NCBI GenBank assembly: GCA_944384995.1
Contig: CALWVN010000004.1
Span: forward strand, 1-64,000
Direction of reading: 5' to 3'
DNA from: an uncultured Clostridia bacterium
Lineage (GTDB): Bacteria > Bacillota > Clostridia > Oscillospirales > Acutalibacteraceae
DNA: 64,000 bases
The position numbers and the translations under genes were made by a program. The notes under the pieces were generated by a model. It was given only the letters and a program-made list of their open reading frames with translations, was not told the DNA's origin and searched no databases. Below are positions 44,471 through 56,335 of this stretch, piece after piece (within the stretch, counting starts at the first letter, position 1; every line of letters begins with the position of its first letter).

Positions 44471-44506
44471 CAGTTCTTAATAAAACAGATGATCGGAGGG
44501 CTTTTC

Positions 44507-44821
44507 ATGGAAAACGCGCTGAACATGATCGTCGAAGCGGATCGAGCCGCGCGTGAGCGCGTGGAGCAGGCACGGCAGCGGCGCGAGGCGTTGACACAAA
44601 CGCTTGCTTCGCAAAAGCAGGCGATCGACGCTGAAAATACCGCGCGTGCGCACGAAGAGATCGACCGTGCACGCAAGACCAAGCAGCAAAAGCTCGAGGC
44701 GCAAAGCCGCGCCATTTCGGAGAGGGAAAAAAAGCTTGCCGCGCGTTTGGAAGAACGGTATAAAGCCGGGCATGCCGCGTGGGAGGACACGCTGTTCTCT
44801 GCGGTGATCAAAGGCGAATAA
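44507..44821 (+). CDS. V/A-type ATPase peripheral-stalk subunit G/H
   Basis: A 104-aa, almost wholly helical, charged protein (ADRAARERVEQARQRREALTQ..., EREKKLAARLEERY) as expected for the stalk subunit that pairs with subunit E. Sequence conservation in this family is low, so the call rests on composition, length and position as first gene of the ATPase operon. The start ATG at 44507 follows GGAGGG. Confidence 0.78.
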   Translation: MENALNMIVEADRAARERVEQARQRREALTQTLASQKQAIDAENTARAHEEIDRARKTKQQKLEAQSRAISEREKKLAARLEERYKAGHAAWEDTLFSAVIKGE

Positions 44822-44858: not shown

Positions 44859-45926
44859 ATGAAAAAAATCGCTTCGCTTTCCGCAGGCGCGCTTACGGCA
44901 AAGGCGCATGCGATGTACGGGGATATTCTCGGCGCCGACATATATCGGGAAGCTTTAAGCTGCCGCAGTATAGTGGAGCTTGCCGCTTTCCTGCGTGACC
45001 ACACGGCGTATGCGTCGGTATTCGGCGATCTTGCGCGTGTGCGCATCCAGCGCGCACGGTTCGAGGCACTGCTGCGCAAATATACGATGACCCGCATCGC
45101 GTCGCTTGCCGCCGCGGAAAAGGCGCTCGGCGGCAGCCTGTATCGGGCGCTTATTATGGATTACGATGCCGAGCTGCTGATCACCTGCGCCGAATATCTC
45201 GGCTCCGAGGGGGTCGGCGAGTCCCTGCAGTTCGTGCCCGCCTTTTATCGCGAGAACTCTCAGCTTAACGAGCGAGAGCTGTTTCGTGCGCACAATTTGG
45301 ATGAACTGGACGCCGCGTTGGACGGCACGCCGTATAACCGTCTGCTGGATGGTTTTCGTGCCGGTGCGCCGTTCTCGGTGCGTGCGCTTGAGCTTTTGGT
45401 AGATGAATGTGTGAACACGCGCACCGAGCAGCTGATTCACGATAACTATTCGGGAGAAACGCGCAGCGCGCTGCTTGAAAATCTGCGCATGCGCGCGGAT
45501 ATGAAGACCGTTGAAAGCCTGTACCGCATGAAGACATATTATCCGGATGCGGATGCGCGCCGTACGGGCGTGCTTTCCAACACGGTGACCGCCTTTACGG
45601 AAAATGAGCGCACCGCCCTGCTCGAGTGCAGGGATGCGGCTGCGCTCACACAGGTGCTCAAGCGGTCGGTTTACGGTAAACTGCCCGGGCTTTTCAAGGC
45701 GGGCGTTATCGAGCATAAAACGAACGAGGCTATGCTTCGCGCCTACGCACACCAGCTCCGTTATTCCACCATTCCGCAGGTCGTGCTTGTCAGTTTTGTC
45801 GGCATCCAGGAAAATGAAATGACCAATCTGGTCCACATTTCGGAGGGGATCCGATACGGGCTTTCCCCCGAAGAGATCGCCGCGTTTCTGGTGACAAAAG
45901 AGAATGTGCGCGCGTCCGAGACGTAA
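44859..45926 (+). CDS. ntpC: V/A-type ATPase subunit C
   Basis: The 355-aa helical funnel subunit links the rotor K ring to the central stalk. Typical blocks are LTAKAHAMYGDIL, LAAFLRDHTAY, and the C-terminal YSTIPQVVLVSFVGIQENEMTNLVHISEGIRYGL. AAAGGAGG precedes the ATG. Confidence 0.93.
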   Translation: MKKIASLSAGALTAKAHAMYGDILGADIYREALSCRSIVELAAFLRDHTAYASVFGDLARVRIQRARFEALLRKYTMTRIASLAAAEKALGGSLYRALIMDYDAELLITCAEYLGSEGVGESLQFVPAFYRENSQLNERELFRAHNLDELDAALDGTPYNRLLDGFRAGAPFSVRALELLVDECVNTRTEQLIHDNYSGETRSALLENLRMRADMKTVESLYRMKTYYPDADARRTGVLSNTVTAFTENERTALLECRDAAALTQVLKRSVYGKLPGLFKAGVIEHKTNEAMLRAYAHQLRYSTIPQVVLVSFVGIQENEMTNLVHISEGIRYGLSPEEIAAFLVTKENVRASET

Positions 45927-45953
45927 CGGGTCTGTGTGAAAGGAAGGCTTTCC

Positions 45954-46898
45954 ATGAGAAAACGAAAATTTGCGGTCCTCAGGCTCCTGATCGCTTCGGA
46001 AGAAATGGATGCGGTTTGCAGAGCTTTGAAGCAATACGGCTTTCAGCCGCAGTTTGATACCGAAACGCCGGCGTCGGCATATCGCGGTACGGAAAAAAAG
46101 AACGGTGACAGCCCGTATACGCATGCGCTGTCGCATCTGCGCTTTGTGCTGGATATTGCCGGGAAACCGCTTCCCGAAGCCGACATCCATGCAGCATTGC
46201 CGGAAGGCTGGTATGAAAAAACCGAGGCGCTTTATAAAGCCTGCCGAACGCTTCAAAAAGAGAAAACACAGCTGCAAGAGCAGGAGGAAGCCTGCCGGCA
46301 GGGACAAAAAAAGCTGGAGCTGTTCGGCGATTTGTCCGTAGACCTGCAGGATATTGTGGAATGTACGTTCATCCGCGTTCGATTCGGGCATATGCCCGCG
46401 GAAAGCTACGAGCGTATGCGTGCGCTGTATGCAGACAATCCGTATGTAGAGTTTTTCCCATCCTTTTCGGACGGCGGCGAGATCTTCGGAATGTATTTTG
46501 CGCCGCGCGATATGGCGCAGCGGATCGATGCGATCTTTGCCTCGCTTTTGTTTGAGTCGCTTGCCATACCTTCATTATCAGGCAACACTGCCGAGATCGG
46601 CACGGAATTTGAACGAAGCCTGCACATCTTAGAGACGGAGCTTTCCGACGTCGAGCAGCGCCTGGAACGGTTCTTTGCAAAAGAAGAGGAGACCGTCCGT
46701 GCGCTGTATGCCGCGCTTGCCGGGGCAGAGTCGCTGTTTGCGCTGAAAGCCTATGCGACGTGCTGCAAGGGCTCCTACATCCTGACCGGGCTGCTGCCCG
46801 AAGAACGGCTGCGGGAGCTGTACGCTGTTCTTGAAAACAGCAAACAAGTCTATGTGATCCGAAAGGGCTGCGTCAAGCAGCGTTTTGCGACGGCCTGA
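45954..46898 (+). CDS. Truncated V/A-ATPase subunit I paralogue (cytoplasmic arm only)
   Basis: This 314-aa protein aligns with the cytoplasmic N-terminal arm of subunit I, the next gene: the shared blocks are SPYTHAL/NPYTQKI, FIRVRFGHMPAES/FIKVRFGHMPKES, GMYFAPRD/GVYFAPVD and AIFASLLFES/GIFAFLLFEP. It stops cleanly by its own codon where the full protein would enter its membrane half, and has no transmembrane helix. AAAGGAAGG precedes the ATG. The two copies are clearly diverged and both look intact, so this is an old duplication, not a recent break. In a normal complex one subunit I bridges both peripheral stalks; a second soluble arm could occupy or regulate a stalk site. Confidence 0.85.
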   Translation: MRKRKFAVLRLLIASEEMDAVCRALKQYGFQPQFDTETPASAYRGTEKKNGDSPYTHALSHLRFVLDIAGKPLPEADIHAALPEGWYEKTEALYKACRTLQKEKTQLQEQEEACRQGQKKLELFGDLSVDLQDIVECTFIRVRFGHMPAESYERMRALYADNPYVEFFPSFSDGGEIFGMYFAPRDMAQRIDAIFASLLFESLAIPSLSGNTAEIGTEFERSLHILETELSDVEQRLERFFAKEEETVRALYAALAGAESLFALKAYATCCKGSYILTGLLPEERLRELYAVLENSKQVYVIRKGCVKQRFATA

Positions 46899-46939
46899 TC
46901 TTTCCCCGCAAAAAAATCTTCTAAGGAAAAGGAGATACC

Positions 46940-48880
46940 ATGGCGATTGAAAGAATGAAGCTGATGAAGATCAGCGGCACGCTCGGTCAGCTTGCCGCAG
47001 TCAGCGAGGTGCTGTGCGAAAGCGAGAGCTTCCAGCCGGATGCCGCATCGAATTATATTTCCTCCTCCATGGGCTTTCTTCCGTTTTCGGAAGAGAACCC
47101 TTATACGCAAAAAATCACGGCACTCACGGATTTTGCGGCTTCGCTCGGGTTCCCGCTGGAAGAGCAGACTGCATCCGAAACGGTGTCCGATGACGCGGAT
47201 GACGACTATATCCGCACGGTGGAGAAACGCGCTTCCCAGCTTTTGGAAACGCGCCGTATTTTGACCGAGCAGAAAGAGGTTTGCGAGGACGGCATTCGCA
47301 AGTATTCGCATTTCGCGGGGCTGGATCTCGATTTGGACAGCATTTCCGCATGCGAGTTTATCAAGGTGCGCTTCGGACATATGCCGAAAGAGAGCCTCGC
47401 ACGGCTGAATACAGTGTTCCGCGATTACCCCTATTTGCTGTTCTGCCCGTGCTCGGAGGACAAGACCGATTATTGGGGCGTATACTTTGCCCCGGTCGAT
47501 AAGCTCGACGAAGTGGACGGTATTTTTGCCTTCCTGCTGTTCGAACCGTTTTCCGTTCCCGGCGCAGCCGGCACGGTGGATGAGGTGCTCGCCGAAATTC
47601 GCAAAAGCATCGCGATCCTTGAAGGGCAGATCTCCGAAAACGAAGATCATCTGCGCGCGTTCTGGAAAGAGGAAGAAGCGCATTGCAACCTGCTATATAC
47701 AAAGCTCCTTCGACAAAACGCGGTGTTTTCGCTGCGCAGCTATGCTCTGCACAACGAAAAGAATTTTATGCTTGTGGGCTTTGTGCCCGAAAGCCGTGTG
47801 CGCGGGCTTTCCGAACGCATCGATAAGATTGAGGATGTCTCTGCGGAGGTGGAAGAACCGCCGAAGAGCGAGAAAGTTTCGATCCCCGTCCGATATAAAC
47901 AGCGCGGGCCGCTGTACAGGGCCCTTGTTTCTCCATACCGGTATTATATTGAAATGTACGGCTCGCCCGGCCGCAGCGACGTGGATGTGACGCCGTTTGT
48001 TGCCGTGACATATACCATATTGTTCGGCATCATGTTCGGCGACCTTGGGCAGGGGCTTGTGGTGAGCCTTGCGGGCTTCCTTATGTGGAAGCTCAAAAAA
48101 ATGGAACTCGGCAAGATCCTGATCCCCTGCGGGCTTTCGTCTGCGGTGTTTGGGTTTTTGTTCGGCAGCGTGTTCGGGTTTGAGGAAATGCTCGACCCCG
48201 TATACCACGCCCTCGGATGGGGCGGCAAGCCTCTTTCCGTTATGGACAGCATCAATACCGTGCTGCTCATTGCCATCGGCATCGGCGTGTTCCTCATGGT
48301 CTGTGCAATGCTCATCCACATATATGCAAGCATCAAGCGCCGACAGTTCGGCGAAGCGCTTTTCAGCCAAAACGGGCTTGCCGGCATGGTGCTTTACCTG
48401 ATGGGCGTCAACCTTGCCTCCGGCTTTATGGGCGGCCCGGCGCCGATCCCCACGAATGTCTGCGGTGTGCTGCTCGGCGTTTCGGCGGTGCTTCTGTATA
48501 TTAAGGAGATCCCCATCGGCATCATCGATAAGCACCCCGATTGGAAGCCCGAGAGCTGGCCGGATTTCCTCTTACAGAATTTCTTTGAACTCATCGAATA
48601 CGTCCTTTCTTATCTTTCCAATACCCTGTCTTTCCTGCGCGTCGGCGCGTATGTGCTGGTGCATGCAGGCATGATGATGGTTGTGTTCTCGCTTGCGGGC
48701 GAGAGTGAAAACCTGTTTGTCATCATCCTCGGCAACGCGCTGGTAATCGTGCTTGAAGGGCTTTTGACGGGCATCCAGGTGCTGCGTCTTGAATATTACG
48801 AAATGTTCAGCCGTTTTTATGAGGGCGACGGCAAACCTTTTACACCCGTTACCCTGCACAAACAAATCCATACAAATTGA
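46940..48880 (+). CDS. ntpI: V/A-type ATPase subunit I, full length
   Basis: The 646-aa stator subunit has a cytoplasmic arm (about 1-320) and a membrane half with about seven helices that carries ions past the K ring. The membrane part has DVTPFVAVTYTILFGIMFGDLGQG near residue 350 and the essential Arg-bearing helix near the C-terminus, LSFLRVGAYVLVHAGM. The start follows AAAAGGAG. It is preceded by its own truncated paralogue. Confidence 0.95.
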   Translation: MAIERMKLMKISGTLGQLAAVSEVLCESESFQPDAASNYISSSMGFLPFSEENPYTQKITALTDFAASLGFPLEEQTASETVSDDADDDYIRTVEKRASQLLETRRILTEQKEVCEDGIRKYSHFAGLDLDLDSISACEFIKVRFGHMPKESLARLNTVFRDYPYLLFCPCSEDKTDYWGVYFAPVDKLDEVDGIFAFLLFEPFSVPGAAGTVDEVLAEIRKSIAILEGQISENEDHLRAFWKEEEAHCNLLYTKLLRQNAVFSLRSYALHNEKNFMLVGFVPESRVRGLSERIDKIEDVSAEVEEPPKSEKVSIPVRYKQRGPLYRALVSPYRYYIEMYGSPGRSDVDVTPFVAVTYTILFGIMFGDLGQGLVVSLAGFLMWKLKKMELGKILIPCGLSSAVFGFLFGSVFGFEEMLDPVYHALGWGGKPLSVMDSINTVLLIAIGIGVFLMVCAMLIHIYASIKRRQFGEALFSQNGLAGMVLYLMGVNLASGFMGGPAPIPTNVCGVLLGVSAVLLYIKEIPIGIIDKHPDWKPESWPDFLLQNFFELIEYVLSYLSNTLSFLRVGAYVLVHAGMMMVVFSLAGESENLFVIILGNALVIVLEGLLTGIQVLRLEYYEMFSRFYEGDGKPFTPVTLHKQIHTN

Positions 48881-48898: not shown

Positions 48899-49372
48899 AT
48901 GACCGCATTTTTCTATGTATTGTTGATCGTTGCACCCATGGCGCTGCTGGCGACCGCTTTTATCGCTCTGCGCAAACGCAATCAAGGAAAGTCCGCGAAA
49001 CGTGCAATGGGCATGAACCTTGCCGTATTCGGCGTTCTGGTGGTGCTTTTGTCGGTGCTTTCGTTTAACGTGTTTGCTGCATCGGATACAAACACGGCGG
49101 CGGACACCGCGCAGACCGAGCAGACCGCCGCGCAGGCGGAGCAGACCGCCGGAGATTCCTCAAAAGGTCTCGGGCTTTTGGCGGCAGGGCTTGTAACGGG
49201 CCTTGCGGGCATCGGCGGCGGTATCGCGCTGGCAGCGGCAGCTCCTGCCGCAATCGCTGCAACCGCTGAGAACCCGAAATCCTTCGGTAAATCCCTGATC
49301 TTCGTGGCGCTCGGCGAATCCATCGCGCTGTTCGGCGTGGTCATCTCGATTTTGATCATCAACGAGCTGTAA
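48899..49372 (+). CDS. ntpK: V/A-type ATPase subunit K (proteolipid)
   Basis: The 157-aa rotor subunit forms the ion-carrying ring. Four helices are predicted: two N-terminal (about 1-23 and 41-62), a hydrophilic linker with Ala/Gln/Thr repeats (about 63-88), then a conserved proteolipid hairpin GLGLLAAGLVTGLAGIGGGIA and FVALGESIALFGVVISI with the ion-binding Glu in ALGES. The N-terminal hairpin shows little likeness to a c-subunit and has no acidic residue in its second helix. The Gln/Thr ligands of sodium-type K rings are not seen near the glycine-rich helix; ion choice stays open. Confidence 0.9.
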   Translation: MTAFFYVLLIVAPMALLATAFIALRKRNQGKSAKRAMGMNLAVFGVLVVLLSVLSFNVFAASDTNTAADTAQTEQTAAQAEQTAGDSSKGLGLLAAGLVTGLAGIGGGIALAAAAPAAIAATAENPKSFGKSLIFVALGESIALFGVVISILIINEL

Positions 49373-49384
49373 GAGGGCGCAAAT

Positions 49385-49690
49385 ATGCGACTGTTTTTGG
49401 TCAGCGATAAGCTGGATCCCGTGATCGGCATGCGCCTTGCAGGCGTGGAGGGCGCGTGCCTGCGTTCGAGCGCCGACATGGAAAAGGCGCTGTGCGACGC
49501 CGCCGCAAACGCGGAGATCGGTGTTATCCTTTATACGGCAGGCGTGCGCGAAGCGTGCGCCGAGACCGTTGCGCGGCTGCAGCGAAAGCCACGTCCGCTG
49601 CTTTTGGAGATCCCGGACGGCGAAAGCGAGACGGGCAGCACGAGCAGCATTACACAATATATTCAAGAGGCGGTCGGCATCCGTTTGTGA
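49385..49690 (+). CDS. ntpG: V/A-type ATPase subunit F
   Basis: A 101-aa central-stalk subunit. It opens MRLFLVSDKLDPVIGMRLAGVEG, with the family's VIG-F/M-RLAG pattern, and has the IGVILYTAGV strand and PLLLEIPDGES loop. Twelve bp follow ntpK. Confidence 0.93.
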   Translation: MRLFLVSDKLDPVIGMRLAGVEGACLRSSADMEKALCDAAANAEIGVILYTAGVREACAETVARLQRKPRPLLLEIPDGESETGSTSSITQYIQEAVGIRL

Positions 49691-49717: not shown

Positions 49718-50326
49718 TTGGATATTCCAAACGGCAATATCACAGTCTTTCTCGACGCTGTCCGCCGGCTTGCGGATGCGGAGTGTGAGAAAATCGACTG
49801 CGAGACCGAGGCTGTGCGCACGCAGCGGCTGGAGACTTTGCAGCAGGAAGCAAAAGCGCGCAGCGATGCATACGCGCAGTATGAGATCGCGCGCATCGAT
49901 GCAGATTTTAACCGCGAGATCTCCGCACTGGAGGAGGCTTCGCGCAAGCGGCTCACAGAGAGGCGCACTGAATTGGAAAAACAGGTGTTTGACCGCGTGC
50001 GCGCGCGCATCACTGCGTTCACCGAAACGCCGGAATACCGCGATATGCTGAAAAAAAGCGCCGAACAGGCGGCTGCGGCTGTCGGCGGCAGGAATTTGAC
50101 GGTGTATCTTCGGGAGGCGGATATGCCCCTTGCCGAAACGCTTTGTGCAGACCTGCCGAAAGACACGCAGTTCGTCTGCGACGCGACGATCTTGCTCGGC
50201 GGGGTAAAGGTACGTGCCGGAGCGACCGGGCTTTTGGCGGATGATACACTTGACGCGCGATTGGAACAGCAGAAGACGCAGTTTTTGGCTGTTTCCGGAC
50301 TTTCCATAGAGGAGGCGGAAGAATGA
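49718..50326 (+). CDS. ntpE: V/A-type ATPase subunit E
   Basis: The 202-aa peripheral-stalk subunit has a long N-terminal helix (about 8-95, with EARSDAYAQYEIARID) and a C-terminal globular domain with DATILLGGVKVRAG near 165. The start is TTG with AGAGGTGA upstream. Its stop overlaps the ntpA start by 4 bp. Confidence 0.9.
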   Translation: MDIPNGNITVFLDAVRRLADAECEKIDCETEAVRTQRLETLQQEAKARSDAYAQYEIARIDADFNREISALEEASRKRLTERRTELEKQVFDRVRARITAFTETPEYRDMLKKSAEQAAAAVGGRNLTVYLREADMPLAETLCADLPKDTQFVCDATILLGGVKVRAGATGLLADDTLDARLEQQKTQFLAVSGLSIEEAEE

Positions 50327-52077
50327 CGGCGTATCAGATCTACGGCATCAACGGGCCGGTCATTACCGTCCGCGGCGAAACCGGTCTTCAGATGATGGAG
50401 ACGGTCTATGTCGGCAACGCGCGACTCATCGGCGAAGTCATCGGGCTGCAGCAAGACAAAACCACCATCCAGGTTTACGAAGAGACGGCAGGGCTAAAAG
50501 TGGGCGAACCCGTATACGCTACGGGCAGCGCAATGAGCGTTACACTCGGACCCGGGCTTTTGGGCAATATTTTCGACGGCATCCAGCGCCCGCTGCCGGC
50601 TTTGGAAAAACAGTTCGGCGCATTCATCGGGCGCGGCGCGAAATTTTCACCGCTGGATACCGAAAAGACCTATGATGTCCACCTGTGCATAAAAGTCGGC
50701 GACCGTCTTTCGGGCGGCGATGTGTATGCGACCTGTCCCGAGACAGCGGCTGTCGAGCACAAGGTGATGCTCGCACCGAATCTTTCGGGCACGGTGTCGG
50801 AGGTTCTCCCCGACGGCGCATATCATGTGCAGGATACCGTCGCAAGGCTTCAAACCGACGACGGAAAAGAAATCGATCTGACGCTGATGCAGACGTGGCC
50901 CATTCGCACGCCGCGTCCCACCAGAAAGCGTCTGCCCGCCGACCGTCCGCTGATCACCGGGCAGCGCGTGATCGATACGGTGTTCCCCGTAGCCAAGGGC
51001 GGCGCGGCGGCGATCCCCGGCGGCTTCGGTACGGGCAAAACTATGACACAGCACCAGCTTGCCAAATGGTGCGACGCGGACATCATCATCTACGTCGGCT
51101 GCGGCGAACGCGGCAACGAAATGACGCAGGTGCTCTCCGAATTTTCGGAGCTTACCGACCCGCGCACGGGCAAGTCGCTCCTTGACCGAACGGTGCTCAT
51201 CGCCAACACCTCCAATATGCCCGTCGCGGCGCGCGAAGCGTCCATTTACACGGGCATCACCCTTGCGGAATACTACCGCGATATGGGTTACCATACCGCG
51301 CTTATGGCGGACTCGACCTCTCGTTGGGCGGAAGCGCTGCGTGAGATTTCAGGGCGGCTTGAAGAAATGCCTGCCGACGAGGGCTTCCCCGCATATCTGC
51401 CTTCGCGCCTTTCGGAGTTCTATGAGCGCGCGGGGCGTACCGAAACCTTAAACGGCAGCGAAGGCTCCGTAACGCTGATCGGTGCGGTCTCGCCGCAGGG
51501 CTCGGATTTTTCGGAGCCTGTCACACAGAATACCAAGCGGTTCACGCGCTGCTTTTGGGCGCTGGACAAATCCTTGGCCTACGCACGGCATTACCCCGCA
51601 ATCAACTGGACGCTTTCATACAGTGAGTACACGAACGAGCTGACGAATTGGTACCGCGATAACGTCTCGCCCCAGTTCTCGAGCGACCGCGACGAGCTGT
51701 GCGCGCTCTTGCAAGAGGAAAACACGCTCATGGAGATCGTCAAGCTCATCGGTGCCGACGTGCTGCCGGACGACCAGAAGCTGGTCATCGAGATCGCGCG
51801 CGTGATCCGCGTCGGATTTTTGCAGCAAAACGCCTTCCATGCGGAGGACACCTATGTGCCGCTGGAAAAGCAGTATAAAATGATGCATGTGATTTTGCAT
51901 CTGTACCACCGCGCCAGAGAAGTCGTCGCACGGCAGATTCCGATTTCCGTGCTGCTGCAAACGGGGATCTTTGAACAGCTTGTCAAAATGAAATACGATG
52001 TGCCGAACGACAAGACGGAGATGCTCGACGATTATATCCGCGACATCGACGCCGCCGTAGACGGCATCCTGCGCTGA
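50323..52077 (+). CDS. ntpA: V/A-type ATPase catalytic subunit A
   Basis: The 584-aa catalytic subunit binds and hydrolyses (or makes) ATP. Walker A GGFGTGKT is at 233-240; the non-homologous insert typical of A subunits precedes it; [41 protein letters not shown] and the C-terminal helical domain follow. It is preceded by subunit E with a 4-bp overlap. Confidence 0.97.
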
Positions 52078-52091
52078 AAGGGGGCGGAACT

Positions 52092-53468
52092 TTGCTTGTC
52101 AGACATTTGAAATTAAGCGGCGTGAACGGGTCGCTTGCAACCCTTTCCGGCGTGGAAAACGCCGCAAATGAAGAGATCGTGCGCCTGCACCTGACGGACG
52201 GTACCGAGCGCACGGGGCGCGTTGTCAAGATCGACGGCGACGAGGTCTCTGTGCAGGTGTTCGAGGGCACGCGCGGCATGTCCATGTCGAATACCGAAAC
52301 GATCTTTACGGGTAAGCCCATGCAGGTCGCGCTGTCTCCCGAGATTTTAGGGCGCGTGTTCGATGGCCTCGGCAGACCCATCGACGGGCTCGGCGAGGTG
52401 TTCCCCGAGGAGGTGCGCGACGTAAACGGCGCGCCCATCAACCCCGTTTCGCGCGAATACCCGCGCAACTACATCCACACCGGTATTTCCTCTATTGATG
52501 CGCTCGCCACGCTCATCCGCGGGCAGAAGCTACCCATTTTTTCGGGCTCCGGCATGCAGCACAACGAGCTTGCCGTGCAGATCGTGCGGCAGGCGTCTAC
52601 CGCTGACGGCAGCGATTTTGCGGTCGTGTTTGCGGCGATGGGCGTGAAAAACGACGTGGCACAGTATTTCCGCACCTCGTTTGAAGAAGCGAACGTCATG
52701 CACCGCGTGGTAATGCTCTTAAACCTTGCCAACGACCCGATCGTTGAGCGCATTATGACGCCGCGCGTCGCGCTGACCATTGCGGAGTATCTGGCGTTCA
52801 CGCGGCATATGCACATTCTTGTCATTTTAACGGATATGACCTCTTACGCCGAGGCGCTGCGGGAATTTTCCGGCTCCAAGGGCGAGATCCCCGGCAGAAA
52901 GGGCTTCCCCGGCTATCTGTATTCCGATCTTGCGTCGCTTTATGAGCGCGCGGGCATGCTCAAAGGCGTGGAAGGCTCGGTCACGCAGATCCCGATCCTC
53001 ACCATGCCCAATGACGACATCACCCACCCGATCCCCGACTTAACAGGCTATATCACCGAAGGGCAGATCGTCTTGAACCGCGACTTGGACTACAAGGGCA
53101 TTTACCCGCCCGTGGATGTTCTGCCGTCGCTGTCGCGTTTGATGAAGGACGGCATCGGCGCAGGCTTTACGCGCGAGGACCACGCGGACTTAAGCAACCA
53201 GCTTCTCGCGTCCTATGCCAAGGTGCAGGATGCAAAGGCGCTCGCATCGGTCATCGGCGAAGAGGAGCTTTCTGCTGACGATAAGCTGCTCATGGAATTC
53301 GGCAGAGCGTTTGAAGCGCGGTTCTTGAACCAGAGCTTTACGGAAAACCGTACAATGGATCAGACGCTCGACCTCGGCTGGGCGCTTTTGTCCATGCTGC
53401 CGCGCCGCATGCTCGACCGTGTGGATGAAAAGACGCTCGAAAAGCATTACAAAGGCGAATCTGCATAA
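52092..53468 (+). CDS. ntpB: V/A-type ATPase regulatory subunit B
   Basis: The 458-aa non-catalytic partner of subunit A. As expected it lacks a Walker A loop; [21 protein letters not shown] occupies that position, and [35 protein letters not shown] follows. The start is TTG behind AAAGGGGG, giving the conserved N-terminal strand. Confidence 0.97.
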
Positions 53469-53503: not shown

Positions 53504-54151
53504 TTGGCGCAGGTGTTTCCGACAAAGGCAAATTTAATGGCGACCCAGAAGTCGCTGGAGCTCGCGCGCATGGGCTATGAGCTGATGGATCGCAAACGCA
53601 GCATTTTGGTGCGTGAGATGATGCAGCTCGTGGATGAAGCGCGTGCGGTCGAGTCGCAGATCGGCGACGTATACAAGCAGGCTTATGCTTCGCTGCGGCT
53701 TGCAAATATCACCTTGGGGCTCTGCGGCAACTTTGCGCGCAGTGTGCCCGTAGATGTTTCCCTTTCGGCGCGCGGCAAAAGCGTCATGGGCGTGGAGATC
53801 CCGATTTTAGAGCTGCCGGAGACCCAGGCGGAGCCCCACTACGGCTTTCATCGGACGAATTCGCACCTCGACGAAGCGTATCGGCAGTTCAACCGTGCAA
53901 AGCAGCTAACCGTGCGGCTGGCCGAAACGCAGGCGTCGATCTTCCGTCTGGCGGATGCAGTTAAGAAAACACAAAAACGCGCAAATGCGTTGAGCAACAT
54001 TTTGATCCCGCAGTTTGAGGCGACCGTGAAGTTCATCACGGAGGCGCTCGACGAAAAGGAACGTGAGGATTTCACGCGCCTCAAGGTCGTAAAAAACGCC
54101 AAACTGCGCGCACAGGCAAACGCAGAAACCCCAGCGGACGAAGCGCAGTAA
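53504..54151 (+). CDS. ntpD: V/A-type ATPase subunit D
   Basis: The 215-aa central rotor axle, a long antiparallel coiled coil. It opens QVFPTKANLMATQKSLELARMGYELMDRKRSIL, the hallmark of the family, and returns with TQKRANALSNILIPQFEATVKFI. The start is TTG after GGGAGGTG. It ends the ATPase operon. Confidence 0.95.
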   Translation: MAQVFPTKANLMATQKSLELARMGYELMDRKRSILVREMMQLVDEARAVESQIGDVYKQAYASLRLANITLGLCGNFARSVPVDVSLSARGKSVMGVEIPILELPETQAEPHYGFHRTNSHLDEAYRQFNRAKQLTVRLAETQASIFRLADAVKKTQKRANALSNILIPQFEATVKFITEALDEKEREDFTRLKVVKNAKLRAQANAETPADEAQ

Positions 54152-54885: not shown

Positions 54886-56277
54886 TTATGCGTTGCTTTC
54901 CGCTTTGTCCAGCGCTTCGGCGACTTTCAGCATGATCGCGCATTCCATCCGCTTTTTGAAAAGCTTACAGCCAAGCTCATAAACGCCCGTGACCGACCCT
55001 GTTGCGTGGTAGGCGTTCGCCGCGCACCCGCCGCTGCAATAGAGCTTTGCCCAGCAGTCGCGGCATTCTTCGCGCGCATAGGCATTGCACAGCTTGAATT
55101 CCTGCTGCACGGCGGTGTTGGTTACGCCGTTCCAAATGTCGCCCAAACGGTATTTTTCATCGCCGACGAATTGGTGGCAGGGGTACAGGTCGCCCCACGG
55201 CGTCACGGCAAGGTATTCCGTGCCCGAGCCGCAGCCGGAAATGCGCTTGTAAATGCACGGCCCGCCCGACAGATCGATCATGTAGTGATAAAACGTGAAA
55301 GGCTTGCCCGCGCGTCTGCGGCGCAGCATCTCTTCGGCGAGCAGTTCATACTGCTTATAAAGCGTGGGCAGATCCGCGTCGCTTAAGGCATACGGGTCGT
55401 CGGGCGCGCTGACCACGGGCTCCATGGAAAGCTCCGTAAAGCCTAAGTCCGCCATATGGAAAATATCGTTTGTGAAATCCAAATTATACTTCGTATATGT
55501 CCCGCGCACGTAGTAGCCGCGGTTGCCGCGCTTTTGCACGAAATCCTGAAACTTCGGCACGATCAAATCATAGCTGCCTGCGCCGTTCACGGTCTTGCGC
55601 AGGCGGTCGTGCACTTCCTTGCGCCCGTCTAAAGAGAGCACAACGTTGTGGCACTCACGGTTGGCAAATTCTGTCACTTCGTCGTTTAACAGAACGCCGT
55701 TTGTCGTTAAGGTGAACCGGAAGTTTTTGCCCGCTTCCTTTTCGATGCTGCGCGCATACGCCACAAGTTCCTTCACAACTTCAAAATTCATCAGCGGCTC
55801 GCCGCCGAAAAAGTCGACTTCTAAGTTTTTTCGCGTGCCCGAATGTTCCACTAAAAAGTCGAGCGCACGCTTGCCCGTTTCAAACGACATCAGCGCCCGT
55901 TCGCCGTGGTATTTGCCCTGCGCGGCGAAGCAGTATGAGCAGTTGAGATTGCAGGTGTGCGCCACATGCAGGCAGAGCGCTTTGACAACCGTATTGCGGT
56001 TTTTGAAATCGAACGCACGGTCGGCGTAGACATCCTCGGTGAACAGCTTGCCGTCGGTTTTTAGCTGCTCGATGTCCGCAAGCACCTCGTCAAGCTCCTT
56101 TACGGAAAGGTTTTCGCCTTCCCCGTATTTTTTGAGAAGTTCTGCCTTGATCTCATCTTTTGTGTGCGTTTCGTACAGCGCGATCGCGTCATAAGCGACC
56201 TCGTCCACCGCATGCACCGCGCCGCTGAATACGTCGAGCACGATGTTGTAGCCGCCGAGCTTATACTGATGTACCAA
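54886..56277 (-). CDS. scfB: SCIFF peptide maturase (radical SAM / SPASM, thioether-forming)
   Basis: This 463-aa radical SAM enzyme installs Cys-to-Thr-type thioether links in the SCIFF peptide encoded just upstream. The N-terminal domain (about 1-90) opens HQYKLGGYNIVLDVFSGAVH, as in the family. The SAM cluster cysteines are C109, C113 and C116 (CNLNCSYC), FFGGEPLMNF follows, and the C-terminal SPASM region has the auxiliary-cluster cysteines (CGSGTEYLAVTPWGDLYPCHQ, then CRDCWAKLYCSGGC). I use TTG 56277 as start since AAAGGA lies 9 bases upstream and homologues begin M-I/V-H; a TTG ten codons earlier is less likely. Confidence 0.95.
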   Translation of the reverse strand: MVHQYKLGGYNIVLDVFSGAVHAVDEVAYDAIALYETHTKDEIKAELLKKYGEGENLSVKELDEVLADIEQLKTDGKLFTEDVYADRAFDFKNRNTVVKALCLHVAHTCNLNCSYCFAAQGKYHGERALMSFETGKRALDFLVEHSGTRKNLEVDFFGGEPLMNFEVVKELVAYARSIEKEAGKNFRFTLTTNGVLLNDEVTEFANRECHNVVLSLDGRKEVHDRLRKTVNGAGSYDLIVPKFQDFVQKRGNRGYYVRGTYTKYNLDFTNDIFHMADLGFTELSMEPVVSAPDDPYALSDADLPTLYKQYELLAEEMLRRRRAGKPFTFYHYMIDLSGGPCIYKRISGCGSGTEYLAVTPWGDLYPCHQFVGDEKYRLGDIWNGVTNTAVQQEFKLCNAYAREECRDCWAKLYCSGGCAANAYHATGSVTGVYELGCKLFKKRMECAIMLKVAEALDKAESNA

Positions 56278-56305
56278 AGCGGCACGTCCTTTCCCGTATT
56301 TTCTC

Positions 56306-56335
56306 AAAAAGAAAAGCCGTCTGACAACGGCTTTT
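56306..56335 (-). terminator. Intercistronic terminator between SCIFF peptide and maturase
   Basis: A 9-bp perfect stem AAAAGCCGT/ACGGCTTTT (56312-56320 with 56327-56335), loop of six bases, followed on the minus strand by CTTTTTG. It lies after the peptide stop and 29 bp before the maturase start, so partial read-through could set a high peptide-to-enzyme ratio. Confidence 0.75.

Follow-up and report, generated by a model that had tools for sequence, protein, structure and literature searches.

A V/A-ATPase operon from an uncultured clostridial bacterium encodes a separate, membrane-free paralogue of the subunit I arm, a candidate additional stator subunit

The V/A-ATPase operon of an uncultured Clostridia bacterium contains, in addition to the gene for full-length subunit I (NtpI), a gene for a 314-residue soluble protein whose homology identifies it as a paralogue of the subunit I cytoplasmic arm. 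The operon lies in a stretch of 64,000 nucleotides of contig CALWVN010000004.1, referred to below as the window. The original prediction dealt with this single operon; the main result beyond it is that extra arms or lobes appear to have arisen several times in related bacteria. We favor a role of the arm as a stator subunit that would provide the EG peripheral stalk with an additional docking lobe, with a probability of about 0.6, because arm sequences are found fused to subunit G and because the distal lobe was gained repeatedly.

The arm gene is located on the + strand at 45954..46898, from an ATG codon at 45954 to a TGA codon at 46896-46898, and is preceded by the ribosome-binding-like sequence AAGGAAGG (45940..45947, +, read directly). 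A GTG codon at 45936, leading to a protein of 320 residues, is also a possible start. The frame is intact, with a clean stop, and 41 bases separate it from the gene for subunit I (46940..48880, +; 646 residues), whose ribosome-binding-like AAGGAG was read directly at 46929..46934 (+). Subunit I consists of an arm (about 46940-47890) and a membrane domain (about 47891-48880). The extra arm and this neighbor share FGHMP, YFAP, and FxxLLFE; in an alignment covering residues 27-294 of the arm, the two proteins are 33% identical (E 1.5e-44). These observations bear out the original description of an intact 314-residue membrane-free arm gene preceding ntpI, with its ribosome site, clean stop, and motifs common to both proteins.

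Searching the bacterium's own genome (86.1% complete) at E <= 0.001 retrieved the arm and subunit I, with no third match. NCBIfam profiles of four families, all of subunit I, matched the arm (best E 2.9e-10, residues 88-301, far under the curated cut-off). Pfam gave no subunit I match, PF01496 included; its sole matches to the arm were to two coiled-coil families, neither of which reached its cut-off. The arm scored 39.4 bits with NF004430, for which the cut-off of 670 is also out of reach of the genuine subunit I encoded in the window (169.6 bits). No 19-residue segment of the arm exceeded the hydropathy threshold used, indicating that the protein has no membrane segment, and its sequence ends at the arm, without the C-terminal membrane domain that provides the ion path in subunit I. 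Since the protein stops at the end of the arm and is devoid of a hydrophobic segment, we classify it as an arm paralogue rather than as a subunit I. It has in common with subunit I the location of its gene in the pump operon and a two-lobed cytoplasmic arm, the latter according to homology and to a modest structural model with its Foldseek matches.

The operon is complete and on the + strand, in the order G, C, extra arm, I, K, F, E, A, B, D. The first gene (44489..44821) encodes a peripheral stalk protein of 110 residues resembling subunits G/H, based on a weak PRK08404.1 (subunit H) match (E 0.0034) and on homologues at the same place in relatives. It is followed by the gene for subunit C (NtpC; 44859..45926, 355 residues, PF01992 E 7e-40). 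Downstream from subunit I are the genes for subunits K (rotor ring; 48899..49372, 157 residues), F (49385..49690, 101 residues, PF01990 E 2.6e-14), and E (peripheral stalk; 49718..50326, 202 residues, PF01991 E 2.6e-15), two reading frames with homologues at the same place in relatives, which we take to encode subunits A (50323..52077, 584 residues) and B (52092..53468, 458 residues), and the gene for subunit D (53504..54151, 215 residues, PF01813 E 6.8e-55). Subunit K displays a single ATP-synt_C hairpin (residues 94-153) and an N-terminal extension with hydrophobic segments at residues 4-22 and 41-59 and a polar linker. A frame of 473 residues on the - strand (54886-56307) contains CNLNCSYC and a cysteine-rich C-terminal part; presumably, it encodes a radical SAM protein, perhaps a peptide maturase.

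The borders of the lobes and helices of the arm were set by us from an AlphaFold model and the alignment. The proximal lobe comprises residues about 1-85 and 263-306, the arm helices residues about 86-130 and 211-262, and the distal lobe residues about 131-210. The order of these elements is that of the subunit I arm, in a model of modest quality (pLDDT 62.6). A control model of the arm of the window's own subunit I, obtained with the same four sequences, was worse (pLDDT 39), so the arm model is poorly calibrated and provides weak support, and the claim is carried by sequence homology. Foldseek analysis of the arm model returned V-ATPase entry chains as its best 28 matches (best E 1e-8); chain and length indicate that these are probably subunit I/a, and 3rrk is so named. 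The global fit was loose, with TM-scores of up to 0.46 and rmsd values of about 10-13 Å. Comparison of the arm profile with solved structures by sequence alone gave a weak match (3rrk, E 0.00053), mostly to the return helix and proximal lobe. The original proposal that the protein should model onto the subunit I arm is sustained by a modest model that matches chains taken to be subunit I/a.

Among the 39 genomes of the bacterium's own genus (g1), itself included, 32 contained a match at E <= 0.001, and 30 of these were strong (E below 1e-50). A separate arm was found beside subunit I in 8 of the 30 strong-match genomes (own included; L032 and G526 counted as one genome) and was missing from the other 22, so that the conservation of the gene, which the original prediction had proposed as a check, holds for part of the genus only. 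In seven arm-less loci inspected, 1 to 60 bases separate the C and I genes, leaving no room for a relic of the arm.

The window arm is under purifying selection, with dN/dS values of 0.15-0.20: 0.197 in comparison to the 95%-identical copy of G526 and 0.15-0.17 in comparison to three more distant copies (0.152 for the pair with G585). Values of 0.193 (G593-G564) and 0.142 (G754-G657) extend the observation to three lineages. The corresponding values for the subunit I arm in the window pairs were lower (0.04-0.11), and the extra arm had the higher dN/dS in 9 of 9 pairs, indicating that it is kept under weaker constraint. Recurrent arm duplications and the 22 arm-less genomes could be expected if the gene were a functionless duplicate heading to decay. 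This explanation is highly improbable, since none of the 12 arm genes checked contained an internal stop, dN/dS ranged from 0.14 to 0.26 in eight pairs from g1 and family f71, and the window arm is 69-78% identical to the intact copies of three relatives; the pair from family f26 (G527-G487) gave a rough estimate of 0.62 versus 0.32 for subunit I. A decaying pseudogene, one of the outcomes that had been named in advance as fatal to the original prediction, is thus not what the selection on the arm indicates.

The distal lobe is the best-kept region of the window arm (46% versus 20-31% elsewhere in the arm). We did not accept this skew as evidence that the lobe binds a stalk, since pairs of subunits I of equal identity also average 46% and 50 of 115 controls were at least as skewed. 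Other arms tested for the same skew were within or below their controls. Distal-lobe conservation was therefore dropped from the evidence as providing no special sign of stalk binding. As a separate observation on the genus, the sole subunit I match in G098 and in G576 is a distant one (open frames of 661 and 662 residues; E 3.6e-5 and 2.0e-6, respectively), and four other genomes contain such a distant match beside the usual one; two kinds of V-ATPase thus seem to be present in the genus.

Wider surveys, which overlap, found matches in 111 of 200 genomes searched in the family, at least 157 of 394 in the order, at least 173 of 391 in the class, and 73 of 299 in the phylum, as well as in 97 of 148, 14 of 28, and 44 of 80 genomes of families f26, f71, and f57, respectively. 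The genomes are mostly drafts, and the numbers of extra arms are lower bounds, with at most five candidates scored per genome in the order and class surveys. Separate arms were present in at least 21 genomes from nine genera and three families. These genomes belong to the bacterium's own family (eight genomes of g1 and G134), to f26 (G527, G1368, G1307, G1271, G1270, G487, G1276, and G1377, the last counted from the survey table rather than from its locus), and to f71 (G754, G865, G657, and G1390, in which the arm is fused to subunit G). Three candidates were rejected: a 322-residue arm frame of G1272 (L140) overlaps a frame of 370 residues and looks like part of a single interrupted subunit I, G783 ends at a contig end, and G868 is fragmentary. 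G1041 (open frame 344) and G539 (genus g182) were not counted as arms.

The arm gene is located between the C and I genes in all 19 separate-arm loci inspected and between the G and C genes in the G1390 fusion. The strong divergence of the arm from subunit I (33%) might be taken to mean that it works with a partner other than the pump. The operon place kept in the 19 loci and the existence of a relative in which an arm is fused to subunit G make this highly improbable.

A tree of 62 arm sequences, including 19 separate arms, required at least six changes (bootstrap range 6-6), and a single clade of separate arms was rejected (difference of 490 log units, p-AU 6.7e-49). The arms of f71 genus g337, that of G134, and, weakly, those of G593 and G564 adjoin their own subunits I in this tree, and the window arm was grouped with the arm of G582 on long branches. 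Some of these apparent origins could be mimicked by gene conversion between an arm gene and the subunit I gene next to it. In a tree based on subunits A and B, genus g1 alone needed three changes, two of which were forced by well-supported branches.

Extra lobes were also found within subunit I itself. The 950-residue subunit I of G080 contains a second, near-complete arm in tandem (profile positions 50-297). Nested duplications of the distal lobe are present in the subunits I of G008 (773 residues), G213 (754), G447 (730), G1341 (786), G1169 (803), and G1284 (910). In 8 of 8 loci of genus g182 inspected (G539, the ninth genome, is outside these eight) and in G1284, an extra distal lobe is inserted in the membrane domain, ahead of its last conserved segments. 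In G1300 (L122), the arm lacks its distal lobe and a distal lobe occupies the same place in the membrane domain. The loci with a distal lobe in the membrane domain are L083, L084, L087-L092, L123, and L122, and the place of insertion was aligned for four of the g182 loci. Following the standard numbering and topology of subunit a, we take this place to be the cytosolic loop between TM6 and TM7. The one-chain forms link an additional lobe with the membrane portion of one and the same enzyme.

These one-chain forms bear indirectly on two alternative roles of the separate arm. As a regulatory cap or decoy, the cap being a role that the original prediction had named next to an asymmetric stator, the soluble arm would replace subunit I on the EG stalks of V1, thereby reversibly detaching V1 or uncoupling the pump. 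A protein that lacks a membrane domain and keeps the order of the arm elements could compete for the same sites, and in all nine pairs its dN/dS is higher than the value for the corresponding arm of subunit I. We nevertheless consider a cap unlikely, since extra arms and lobes that share a polypeptide with the membrane domain, as in the relatives, cannot be free competitors, the place in the operon suggests co-production with the pump, and neither Pfam nor NCBIfam scans detected a regulatory domain in the arm. As an assembly factor, the arm would hold E and G, or subunit I, during assembly and then leave. Its kept element order, its lack of a membrane domain, and the position of its gene just before that of subunit I would suit this role, which is very unlikely in the face of the permanent one-chain arrangements of the relatives; no precedent was found in the titles and abstract starts of the open-licence PMC literature.

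Arm sequence was found joined to subunit G in two forms. In G1390 (f71), a 468-residue protein (L133:4278-5684) consists of a complete arm (residues 1-334) followed by a second subunit G (residues 370-464), in an operon with the order G, arm-G, C, I that also encodes a free G. The complete fusion was found in this one genome only; two congeners (L155 and L156) have G, C, and I without the fusion. In six genomes from two genera of f57 (G931, G1471, G1453, G709, G1458, and G1434; loci L110 and L150-L154), the first half of the arm ends within the distal lobe and continues into subunit G. The second half is encoded by the next gene together with the membrane domain; four of the six genomes have two copies of it and the other two a single copy. 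No other G match was detected in the six f57 stretches, of which that of L153 extends only a short way upstream of C. The f57 case represents a split subunit I rather than an extra arm. In the genomes with two second halves, two complete lobes, one per stalk, could be formed by two first halves that each bear a G. The G tails of G1390 and G931 scored 46.9 and 47.7 bits, respectively, against a profile of five free G proteins, compared to best scores of 18.9 (G1390) and 15.7 (G931) bits for shuffled controls (300 plain and 300 block shuffles each). Such fusions hint at which parts of the arm and of the stalk meet.

For the favored stator role, we propose that subunit I was duplicated and that the copy kept the cytoplasmic arm and lost the membrane domain, giving rise to a soluble stator subunit. 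The arm protein would be part of the collar that lies between V1 and the membrane, where it would offer a second distal lobe. An EG stalk that shares the single arm, or is missing, in the standard two-stalk enzyme would thereby gain an anchor of its own. A second arm would mean a second tip, such that each of two stalks has its own tip or that a third stalk is added. Entry of the arm into the complex, its binding of E and G, and its copy number are features that we infer. A more specific version, which we put forward tentatively and hold to be rather doubtful, is that these bacterial pumps have three EG stalks, or at least a separate arm per stalk, and that the second arm is an independently evolved bacterial counterpart of the eukaryotic collar, gained several times from the distal lobe of subunit I and locked to the stalk by G fusion in some lineages. 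The repeated extra arms in related bacteria suggest that the stator anchoring of the pump is still being rebuilt by evolution. If lobes or arms continue to be added to this enzyme in related bacteria, the anchoring of the stalks would be a variable open to comparison among closely related bacteria that have or lack the arm.

In known prokaryotic V/A-ATPases, a single subunit I/a holds both EG stalks, according to the portions of PMC5758568, PMC6131620, and PMC10382590 consulted, in agreement with the canonical arrangement assumed by the original prediction. The Thermus enzyme, in the consulted portion of PMC5758568, has one stalk, EG1, attached to the arm of subunit a at its tip, and its other EG stalk at a different site; we read this tip as the distal lobe. 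The titles and abstract starts of the open-licence PMC literature contained no report of an extra or fused bacterial subunit I arm, which is a weak negative; the consulted portions of PMC5706428 and PMC2359735 say nothing about it either. The Enterococcus hirae V-ATPase is likewise bacterial and made of subunits A, B, D, E, F, G, d, a, and c (PMC10382590, in part). It differs by its asymmetric dual stalks, with no extra arm mentioned in the consulted portions of PMC10382590 and PMC6199243, which link stalk number and symmetry to the centring of the rotor.

Eukaryotic enzymes have three stalks and extra collar proteins, subunit C adding the third stalk; according to a review, homologues of this subunit are absent from A- and F-type enzymes (consulted portion of PMC6131620). 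If the favored stator role is right, the arm would resemble eukaryotic subunit C (Vma5) as a soluble, two-lobed, coiled-coil collar protein that holds an extra EG stalk. We do not claim membership in that family, as the Foldseek match of our modest model was weak (1u7l, E 0.016, TM-score 0.21) and there was no Pfam match. The closest known counterpart is the arm of subunit I/NtpI/subunit a (Thermus thermophilus 6r0z_N and 3rrk), which the extra arm resembles in its full-length alignment, motifs, order of secondary structures, and best Foldseek matches. It differs from subunit I in lacking the membrane domain, in being encoded by its own gene, and in being only 33% identical to its neighbor, and its operon differs from those of the known prokaryotic enzymes, which, in the consulted portions of PMC5758568 and PMC6131620, have one arm for two stalks.
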